In this document: in pieces, positions 46,378 through 57,012 of the stretch
How positions within the stretch are numbered: the first letter of the stretch is position 1
Layout of the letters: every line of letters begins with the position of its first letter
Source of the DNA: Apostichopus japonicus
Taxonomy: Eukaryota > Echinodermata > Holothuroidea > Aspidochirotida > Stichopodidae
Length of the DNA: 64,000 nucleotides
Assembly: GCF_037975245.1 (NCBI RefSeq)
Contig: NC_092582.1
Location: 4,752,001 to 4,816,000 of the forward strand
Direction of reading: 5' to 3'
The notes under the pieces: model-generated
Database searches by the model: none
Told to the model about the DNA's origin: nothing
The model's input: only the letters and a program-made list of their open reading frames with translations
Position numbers and translations under genes: made by a program

Positions 46378-46593
46378 ATGGCAGGAGAAGTCACAGCAGT
46401 GATTGATCTATGTACGTTAGTAGCAGATGTCGGACTGAAAGCTTATAATGCAGCGCAGAAGATTTCTACCAACTTTGAAGAGGAAAGGAAAAGTCTAGGA
46501 GAGAGGGTTAAGGAAATGAGGCAAAGGGTGGATAGATTGCGAGAAGAGTTGGAAAAAGACCAAACACACAACCTGAAAGGTATTTATTTAAAG
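46378..46593 (+). CDS. MLKL: MLKL-like exon 1: N-terminal helices (aa 1-72)
   Basis: ATG at 46378 lies 33 nt after a TTTTTACAG acceptor-like site (ends 46344), so a 5'UTR intron upstream is likely. It encodes an amphipathic first helix (VIDLCTLVADVGLKAYNAAQ) and a charged second helix. Three donors are possible: 46580 would put a stop in exon 2; 46594 (AAG|GTAGAT) and 46645 (CAG|GTACCT) both stay in frame. I chose the shorter form; the longer adds 17 residues. Confidence 0.8.
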
Positions 46594-55500: not shown

Positions 55501-57012
55501 GCTGGGGGGGCGCCAGCCCCCCCAGTGAAAAATATGGGGGGGCGGAAGTATCATTCCGCCCCCCCGCTCCGCATGTCAGAAAACCCCTTTTTCATTTCCA
55601 AATGAGAAATAAATCTCATTTGGAGCACCAAATTGCATTTAAGGCCAGGTGAAAATGCAAAATTCTTTACAAAATGGAGTGGGAGTTGAAGTGTGCTATA
55701 TTGCACCAAATTGCATCTGAGGCCACCTGGAAATGCAAAAAAATTCCAAAGGGGAGGGGGACACCCCCTCCCCTTAGACCCCTCCCCCAGGCCGGCCATC
55801 AGTCTTCAGCCCCCCCACTCAAAAGTACCTTCCTACGCCAATGATGAAGACGATAACTTTAGTAAAGTTTGGGTTAGCTTCTTACTAGGTATCTAGTACC
55901 ACCTGAATGGGTACAAGAAATATATTGTTTCATGTGAAGGTCAAAGGTTGATACAGGTCAAAGTCTGTAAAGAAAATTTGAAAGCTATTCCTGTACGGTT
56001 TGATATTTGCTCCTTTGATTTTCTATTTCATCATCGTATGTTGCTCTCTGCATCCCAGGGGATGATCCTACCGAAGATGACGTTAGGAAGTTTCTGTTGG
56101 AAACGAAGGGGGAGGAGTATGACCTGAGCAAACTAGAAGACCCAGCCATGTTTGATCTGAGTCTTCTAGTCAAGCAATGCAGAGCGATTGATCCAAAAGA
56201 GAGACCAAATGTATCAGGTATTGATTGATTGATTAATTGATTGATTGAGACAGGCATGAGCTTTTTCTGCGAATTCGCGGAATATCTGTGATTTCTTTTC
56301 TACCTCGGGGACAAAAAGTATTATCCTAACACACTGTAGCATACACAAACTGGAGCCTATACCGCAATTTGTGCAAAGTGTGATTTTTGTCTTACCCCAG
56401 GCTCATCCCTGTTGAGAAGACATCCATCATTTAAAGCTTTCTCTGTTGCTAGCCTCCCAATACAAGCTTACAATCAGCTTGTGAACACTTGGGCGGGTGG
56501 ACGGGTGTGACAAGTTTACCGATGACAAGGGGGTTGATTAATACTCGTTGTTATGCCGTGCGAGATGGCCTTACCTTGAAACAAAACTGAAAACCTACGA
56601 TTGATTTTAAATTTTACATGATATTATGATTATTGAAGTTGAGTCAATTTAAAAAGTCACACAGTGGAAGTATGACAAATGGCTTGTTGAAGAGTAATGC
56701 AAGGTAAATCCATTTAGAAGGTTACAACAAAAAATTGATAAATTTCATATACTTTTATTTAACTTGTTTTATTTTTACTAGTACGATCAATTGAATAAAG
56801 GCTGTCCACGACCACGTACAAGAAAAAGAATGAAAGATGAAAAAAATACCTTGAAGTGTCTGTTCTGTTCTTAACTGTGTCGAGAATGTAAACCTATTGT
56901 TGGTACTCTCTCACTTTCAGATATCGAGAAGACTCTGTCAAAAATATATGAAGACTTTTCGAAGAGGCAGAACCAAACTGATGAATTGAGCAATGGAGGA
57001 GTTGAAATCTAA
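46378..57012 (+). CDS. MLKL: MLKL-like protein: four-helix (HeLo-type) bundle plus brace plus pseudokinase (12 exons, about 541 aa)
   Basis: Exons: 46378-46593, 47024-47159, 47325-47527, 48383-48503, 49717-49782, 50161-50293, 51350-51450, 51812-52011, 53216-53355, 54663-54721, 56059-56217, 56921-57012; phases agree at every join. Residues 1-185 are helical and charged like the MLKL four-helix bundle; 186-247 resemble the brace helices; about 258-530 form a kinase fold (VVVK with K286, helix-C E303, EYMEKGTLKKLL, APE 422-424, FGIVLWE). HRD is HTA (375-377), the catalytic-loop Lys and Asn are R379 and K382, and DFG is GMG (395-397), so a catalytically dead pseudokinase is expected. Human MLKL likewise has degenerate HRD and a GFE in place of DFG. 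Family knowledge: RIPK3 phosphorylates MLKL, which then oligomerises and permeabilises the plasma membrane (necroptosis). Function here is inferred. Alternative: another HeLo-pseudokinase lineage that is not a true MLKL orthologue. Confidence 0.88.
47024..47159 (+). CDS. MLKL: MLKL-like exon 2: four-helix bundle (aa 73-118)
   Basis: Encodes RPKPKELVAQGSTRQEQFLK, then INKIKPNCDNKLLWRRNLLL. Basic residues are dense. In MLKL, basic patches of the bundle bind phosphoinositides, so these are candidate membrane-contact residues (inference). Acceptor TTTTCAG, donor GTAAGT, ends in phase 1. Confidence 0.85.
47325..47527 (+). CDS. MLKL: MLKL-like exon 3: bundle helices 3-4 (aa 118-185)
   Basis: Encodes EFKKIEKFFIKLDGYGDLRG, LKWLLQKIKNFRSVERKFED and LEELQKKL. 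This is a helix, a short turn and another amphipathic helix, aligning with the MLKL segment from the third helix to the end of the bundle. Phase 1 in, phase 0 out, donor GTGAGC. Confidence 0.88.
48383..48503 (+). CDS. MLKL: MLKL-like exon 4: brace helix (aa 186-226)
   Basis: Encodes a continuous polar helix (IILDVREQQAAIIKIQQRDQ and KMRELLK) with heptad-like hydrophobics. Position and character match the MLKL brace, which links the killer bundle to the pseudokinase and supports oligomerisation. Ends in phase 1 with a GTAAGT donor. Confidence 0.85.
48795..48960. repeat. Degenerate ATACCG/GGTAT repeat in MLKL-like intron 4
   Basis: Many copies of TACCG, GTATA and CGGTAT in mixed orientation. 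This explains the open frames on both strands here. Confidence 0.55.
49717..49782 (+). CDS. MLKL: MLKL-like exon 5: brace end (aa 226-247)
   Basis: A 66-nt exon encoding NAALQENLRLVTDRTTYIQK. Helical; bounded by TTGCAG and GTTTGT. Phase 1 both sides. Confidence 0.78.
50161..50293 (+). CDS. MLKL: MLKL-like exon 6: pseudokinase N-lobe (aa 248-292)
   Basis: Encodes IKPDELTDETALAAGSFCDY, then LDGEKVVVKRV. The glycine-rich loop is strongly eroded (only G268 is easily placed), but the beta-3 lysine (K286) is kept. Donor GTAAGT in phase 2. Confidence 0.9.
51350..51450 (+). CDS. MLKL: MLKL-like exon 7: helix C and beta 4 (aa 292-326)
   Basis: Encodes HAKFARETRNLIHFSRGSII and RMFGMWDGQ. E303 sits where the helix-C glutamate that pairs with the beta-3 lysine is expected; I-x-R-M-F-G matches the I-L-R-I-F-G block of vertebrate MLKL. 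Ends in phase 1. Confidence 0.92.
51812..52011 (+). CDS. MLKL: MLKL-like exon 8: hinge to catalytic loop (aa 326-392)
   Basis: Contains VVLEYMEKGTLKKLLKEEE, LTLALTAARSLSRMH and HTALRTDKFLV. The hinge and helix D/E segments follow vertebrate MLKL closely. The catalytic loop reads H-T-A-L-R-T-D-K instead of H-R-D-L-K-x-x-N, so the proton-acceptor Asp, catalytic-loop Lys and metal-binding Asn are all replaced. Phase 1 in, phase 0 out. Confidence 0.95.
53216..53355 (+). CDS. MLKL: MLKL-like exon 9: degenerate DFG, activation loop, APE (aa 393-439)
   Basis: Begins LSGMGYAMTFSSCRRF: the DFG position is G395-M-G, compared with GFE in human MLKL. T401, S403 and S404 are candidate phospho-acceptors near where RIPK3 marks vertebrate MLKL. 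RAPEHY (APE at 422-424) follows, then EADIY. Phase 0 in, phase 2 out. Confidence 0.95.
54467..54629. mobile_element. 163-bp MITE with 6-bp TSD, copy 1 (intron 9)
   Basis: Ends CAGGCATGAGC and GGCTCATCCCTG form short TIRs. It is flanked by ATTTAA at 54461-54466 and 54630-54635. It contains the perfect palindrome TTCCGCGAATTCGCGGAA. Confidence 0.88.
54663..54721 (+). CDS. MLKL: MLKL-like exon 10: helix F (aa 439-459)
   Basis: A 59-nt exon encoding FGIVLWEILTQTKPFSSKL, the very conserved kinase C-lobe block. The upstream split codon supplies Gly, giving I-Y-G-F-G-I-V-L-W-E. It starts only 27 nt downstream of a transposon target-site duplication (54630-54635). Confidence 0.96.
55073..55117 (+). 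repeat. Possible tRNA-like SINE head
   Basis: TGGCTTGACGATG resembles a pol III A box, and GTTCGAGTC 35 bp later matches the B box GTTCGANTC. No tail or second copy found, so this is weak. Confidence 0.22.
55479..55843. mobile_element. hAT-type MITE, copy 2 (MLKL-like intron 10)
   Basis: Same element as at 43450, same orientation, with TIRs CAAGGGCGTAGG and CCTACGCCAATG. The 8-bp duplication ATGAAGAC lies at 55471-55478 and 55844-55851. Confidence 0.9.
56059..56217 (+). CDS. MLKL: MLKL-like exon 11: C-lobe (aa 459-512)
   Basis: Encodes DDPTEDDVRKFLLETKGEEY, then LLVKQCRAIDPKERPNVS, the C-x-x-x-D-P-x-x-R-P motif that marks the kinase C-lobe. Acceptor TCCCAG, donor GTATTG, phase 1 both sides. 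Confidence 0.95.
56251..56411. mobile_element. 161-bp MITE with 6-bp TSD, copy 2 (intron 11)
   Basis: Same family and orientation as the copy at 54467. Flanked by TTGAGA at 56245-56250 and 56412-56417. It inserted 33 nt after the exon 11 donor, beside a TTGATTGA run. Confidence 0.9.
56921..57012 (+). CDS. MLKL: MLKL-like exon 12: C-terminus (aa 512-541 and stop)
   Basis: Encodes IEKTLSKIYEDFSKRQNQTD and a short polar tail ending VEI, stop TAA at 57010-57012. The first helix is the last kinase C-lobe helix, as in MLKL. A polyadenylation signal follows at 57350. Confidence 0.93.

Follow-up and report, generated by a model that had tools for sequence, protein, structure and literature searches.

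Does the gene at positions 46378 to 57012 of this 64,000-nucleotide stretch of the Apostichopus japonicus genome (the window) encode an MLKL, and if so, which one? The gene lies on the + strand, with its ATG at 46378 and the end of its stop codon at 57012. We conclude, with a probability of about 0.92, that it is the A. japonicus MLKL published as AjMLKL, a protein in which a four-helix, membrane-killing domain at the N-terminus is followed by a brace and by a kinase domain without its catalytic residues. We computed the gene structure, the numbering match, the assignment of the pseudokinase and the paralog in tandem; the fold, the cleavage, the lipid binding and the killing are taken from the published account of AjMLKL, of which parts were available (PMC11932488).

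The first-pass annotation had proposed a complete gene of 12 exons. These exons, whose inner borders carry GT donor and AG acceptor signals, do join in frame to a protein of 557 residues, and this part of the proposal stands; its exon 2 and its start of exon 6 are probably wrong. We favour a model of 11 exons and 491 residues. The main message probably skips exon 2 (47024-47159); the end of exon 1 is most likely at 46579 and not at 46593, and exon 6 probably starts at 50161 instead of 50113. Compared with the 557-residue model 198 nucleotides are removed, which corresponds to a shift of 66 residues. The features of the gene are as follows.

46378..46579, + strand: exon 1, first half of the helical domain with the LVAD caspase site (residues 14-17); the paralog exon also has 202 nt
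47024..47159, + strand: exon 2 of the 12-exon model, open and spliceable, not part of the 491-residue model; at most an alternative exon
47325..47527, + strand: exon 3 of the 12-exon model and second exon of the 491-residue model, second half of the helical domain; 203 nt also in the paralog
48383..48503, + strand: exon of the brace region; the 76-nt exon taken as its counterpart in the paralog is little more than a guess
49717..49782, + strand: exon of the brace region; the paralog exon also has 66 nt
50161..50293, + strand: exon with the start of the pseudokinase and the beta-3 lysine K236; 133 nt also in the paralog; start 48 nt earlier in the 12-exon model
51350..51450, + strand: pseudokinase exon with the alpha-C glutamate E253; the paralog exon also has 101 nt
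51812..52011, + strand: pseudokinase exon that carries EYMEKGTLKKLL and has HTA in place of HRD; the paralog exon also has 200 nt
53216..53355, + strand: pseudokinase exon that has GMG in place of DFG (alignment to 6o5z)
54663..54721, + strand: pseudokinase exon with FGIVLWE; the paralog exon also has 59 nt
56059..56217, + strand: pseudokinase exon (alignment to 6o5z)
56921..57012, + strand: last exon with the stop codon, joined in frame

The 491-residue model is preferred because it agrees both with the published numbering of AjMLKL and with the exon lengths of a second MLKL-like gene, which follows the window gene in tandem (positions 4816041-4829022 of contig C22) and has its first base 41 bases past the window end. 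Our model of this paralog has 11 exons and 471 residues. Seven of the 11 exon lengths are common to both genes (202, 203, 66, 133, 101, 200 and 59 nt) and the phases agree; the paralog model was built by hand with the window gene as guide and is thus not a fully independent witness, with exon 4 being little more than a guess. In an enumeration of splice variants with two changes, 12 of the 101 variants of the right length were open and placed K236 in a protein of 491 residues, and a limited enumeration of three-change variants gave 191 such cases, the favoured model included. Since so many variants share the length and K236, the numbering alone cannot fix one model. We infer that the 491-residue form is the main product of the gene.

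The 557-residue form, which includes exon 2 and a longer exon 6, could still be a real alternative isoform of the same gene, in which the link between the second and the third helix would perhaps be longer. Every join of this form is in frame and has GT/AG borders, and the interval between exons 2 and 3 (47160-47324) is open as well and with 165 nt a multiple of three, so that its retention would keep the frame. The published numbering, however, fits the form without exon 2, nothing that matches exon 2 turned up when the region of the paralog was searched by tblastn with the 557-residue protein, and exons 1 and 6 of the paralog have the lengths of the short form. We regard such an isoform as unlikely.

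How well the 491-residue model fits the published protein can be judged from several landmarks. AjMLKL (PIK49054.1) has 491 residues, and its full-length cDNA was cloned by RACE from coelomocytes; its caspase site is 14-LVAD-17 with cleavage between D17 and V18 determined by Edman sequencing, and K236, E253, a four-helix domain from 1 to 134 and a kinase domain from 209 to 467 are reported (PMC11932488). The 491-residue model has LVAD at 14-17 followed by V18, it has K236 and E253, and one of its exon borders falls at residue 135. The two proteins are thus alike in the caspase site, the beta-3 lysine, the alpha-C glutamate, the end of the helical domain (134 versus the border at 135) and the length. 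The 557-residue model also carries LVAD at 14-17, but it has K302 and E319. For residues 18-491 of the shorter model we calculate a mass of 55.0 kDa, and a band of about 53 kDa has been reported for AjMLKL (PMC11932488). The identity with PIK49054.1 rests on this residue numbering. In one place the discussion of PMC11932488 prints the caspase site as 14-LESD-17; the window reads LVAD.

Alternatively PIK49054.1 could be a third A. japonicus copy or an allele and not exactly the window gene. The window gene reads VVVK where VVIK is printed for AjMLKL (PMC11932488), and three MLKL genes are ascribed to A. japonicus in the part of PMC11507063 that was available. Against this, the search of the genome with the window protein gave only two MLKL-like genes, which is a lower bound, and the second of these is without LVAD. 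We therefore hold a third copy or allele to be quite improbable and the window gene to be very probably the source of AjMLKL.

That search returned 19 matches, 12 in the window gene, five in the downstream gene and two elsewhere. The two distant matches belong to other kinases, one PknB/MAP3K12-like and one MUSK-like. At least two MLKL-like genes thus appear to be present in the genome, as judged from these matches.

We then come to the question whether the kinase domain is that of an MLKL at all. A Pfam match to the protein kinase family PF07714 (E 3.6e-29) covers residues 280-533 of the 557-residue model. The first-pass annotation had pointed to EYMEKGTLKKLL and FGIVLWE as blocks that track vertebrate MLKL, and both are indeed present and align with EYCELGTLRELL and FGIVLWE of the PDB MLKL chain 6o5z, which we take to be human MLKL. 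In this alignment HTA stands at the HRD position and GMG at the DFG position, so that both catalytic aspartates are lost as in 6o5z; the beta-3 lysine and the alpha-C glutamate are kept. When the window gene was compared with the PDB by phmmer, MLKL chains took places 1-11 with 87.4-72.8 bits, followed by StkP with 68.1 bits, the best RIPK1 chain having 64.8 bits (best 60 of 1662 matches); the margin of MLKL over the next kinase is modest here (72.8-87.4 versus 68.1 bits). For the paralog MLKL again took places 1-11 with 111.1-107.0 bits, ahead of CTR1 with 67.6 bits and a best RIPK1 chain with 58.9 bits (best 60 of 304), and for a joint profile of both kinase domains it did so with 117.7-111.1 bits, ahead of StkP with 81.2 and RIPK1 with 74.6 bits (best 60 of 106). 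Two control kinases from the same genome had best matches other than MLKL and gave no MLKL among the best 60 of 138 and the best 60 of 823 matches.

The reverse comparisons were less uniform. With the PDB MLKL kinase as query against seven proteins, phmmer ranked the paralog first (107.3 bits) and the window gene second (86.1 bits), before DLK (79.3 bits) and MLK1 (78.7 bits). In blastp with the same query the window gene and DLK tied at 100 bits with a slightly better E-value for DLK. Searched exon by exon against the genome the PDB MLKL kinase gave 15 matches; the top one was a MUSK-like kinase without introns, while the paralog ranked third and an exon of the window gene sixth. A tree of eight kinase domains, from which RIPK was left out and in which the MUSK-like row sits on a long branch, grouped PDB MLKL with the window gene and the paralog (support 100/98); a grouping with another TKL family, which had been named as the outcome that would speak against MLKL, was not found in this small tree. 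Taken together the kinase domain appears to lie nearer to MLKL than to the remaining TKL kinases, MLK among them and, from the PDB ranking, RIPK as well, although the blastp tie with DLK and the exon-by-exon search speak against it. That it is instead a kinase of another TKL family (MLK/DLK or RIPK) which is MLKL-like only through the loss of catalytic residues, as the blastp tie with DLK and the lack of an MLKL_N match in the N-terminus might suggest, is very improbable in view of the PDB ranking, the eight-row tree and the published phylogenies and assays (PMC11932488, PMC11507063).

The assignment of the N-terminal part to MLKL has a different footing. The profile search proposed for the predicted protein matched the kinase domain as described; MLKL_N (PF22215) was absent from the Pfam lists for the 557-residue protein and for its first 264 residues, as well as from the 25 of 32 families listed for a 197-residue N-terminus. 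No family in these lists reached its curated cut-off over the N-terminus (25 of 32 families for the 197-residue piece). A genome-wide search with MLKL_N was silent, as were its controls. The Pfam-unassigned N-terminal part precedes the kinase match (280-533 of the 557-residue model). A profile built from the N-termini of both genes found no MLKL among 19 PDB hits at E up to 10; its best hit was the engineered chain sc-apCC-6 (E 1.4e-4). AlphaFold2 predicted two helices for exon 3 alone (mean pLDDT 80.1) and, when given only exon 1, a single 65-residue helix and not a hairpin (94.8); these single-exon predictions are helical but uninformative as to a bundle.

For the published protein, AlphaFold2 folds residues 1-134 into four helices like those of mouse MLKL, and the four-helix domain has PI4P, PIP2 and PIP3 as lipid ligands and is toxic to E. 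coli (PMC11932488). The same work reports that SMART does not detect this domain, and no MLKL_N domain was detected in sea cucumber MLKLs according to the available part of PMC11507063. That the N-terminus is a four-helix killer domain in the MLKL order rests on the published AlphaFold2, lipid-binding and killing results (PMC11932488). The earlier claim of an MLKL in an echinoderm is thus borne out for the pseudokinase by sequence and for the N-terminus by published work (PMC11932488).

According to the activation route published for AjMLKL, Vibrio infection leads to the assembly of an NLRC4/caspase-1 complex, and caspase-1 cuts AjMLKL after Asp17 in LVAD. The trimmed protein is reported to bind phosphoinositides and cardiolipin, move to the plasma membrane, open pores of about 1.1-2.4 nm and lyse the coelomocyte, and also to kill bacteria directly; phosphorylation by RIPK3 appears to be unused (all PMC11932488). 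Residues 18-491 bound cardiolipin and other lipids more strongly and formed pores, and neither a phosphorylation shift nor binding of AjRIPK3 was seen for AjMLKL in the parts of that account available (PMC11932488). The window sequence agrees with this mechanism in that LVAD-V is intact and the kinase keeps the lysine and the glutamate, the catalytic residues being lost. Searches of the genome for RHIM and for gasdermin were both silent, and so were their controls. AjRIPK3 is named in PMC11932488, and only RIPK5 is given for A. japonicus in the part of PMC11507063 that was available.

What does the tandem paralog tell about this switch? Its residues 14-17 read DVSA instead of the LVAD of the window gene, and a cut by caspase-1 of the published kind is therefore not expected there. 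At the DFG position the paralog reads SMG. Of the aligned residues, the two proteins share 49 of 134 in the helical domain and 156 of 258 in the kinase domain. Over 468 codons Ka is 0.43 and Ks 1.14, with values of 0.61 and 1.05 for the helical domain and of 0.29 and 1.02 for the kinase domain; in the brace Ks is saturated. These values are consistent with purifying selection on the pair. We tentatively propose, at somewhat less than an even chance, that the two genes have split triggers, with the window gene being activated by caspase-1 at LVAD and the neighbour either being activated otherwise or regulating the first. No open-access paper on the tandem pair or on a second copy without the caspase site was found, as judged mostly from literature listings. 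The pair lends itself to a comparison of the ways in which MLKL is switched on where RIPK3 phosphorylation is unused.

Compared with vertebrate MLKL (6o5z and 4btf, the latter being mouse MLKL; PMC11932488) the window gene has likewise lost the HRD and DFG aspartates, finds its best PDB matches there and has the same domain order, its bundle being taken from PMC11932488. It differs in a kinase identity of only about 30%, in an N-terminus without a Pfam MLKL_N match and in the activation of AjMLKL by caspase-1 cleavage and not by RIPK3 phosphorylation (PMC11932488). Hl-MLKL of Holothuria leucospilota, which we compared by its description only, is also a sea cucumber MLKL with a pseudokinase and without a detected MLKL_N; in contrast to A. 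japonicus, that species has one gene (PMC11507063, in part). MLKL has been described from Echinodermata, Hemichordata, Cephalochordata, Urochordata and Rotifera. Some of the MLKLs of echinoderms, amphioxus, tunicates and rotifers have N-terminal domains that are lethal to human cells, those of the echinoderms A. planci and P. miniata having killed HEK293T cells (PMC11476962). This comparison is again by description, and the species named in the available part of that paper do not include A. japonicus. The sea cucumber MLKL gene is thus already known, with echinoderm MLKL and its killing activity in print, and the suggestion that the locus could shed new light on whether the executor is older than the vertebrates has been overtaken by published work (PMC11476962). 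Raw sequence recovers here a gene already studied as the executor of lytic death in the immune cells of sea cucumbers, to which the corrected exon map and the tandem sister gene without a caspase-1 site are small additions.

Elsewhere in the window an exon at 27676-28119 (+) encodes a RasGEF domain (Pfam PF00617, E 7.7e-13), and there is a weak match to RasGEF_N (E 0.013), perhaps at 23815-24168 (+); from these two matches a RasGEF-type gene probably lies upstream of the MLKL gene. Within the MLKL gene itself two introns (54469-54620 and 56253-56402) each hold a copy of a repeat some 150 nt long, with 90% identity between them; these are the only two copies within the window in blastn at E 1e-5.
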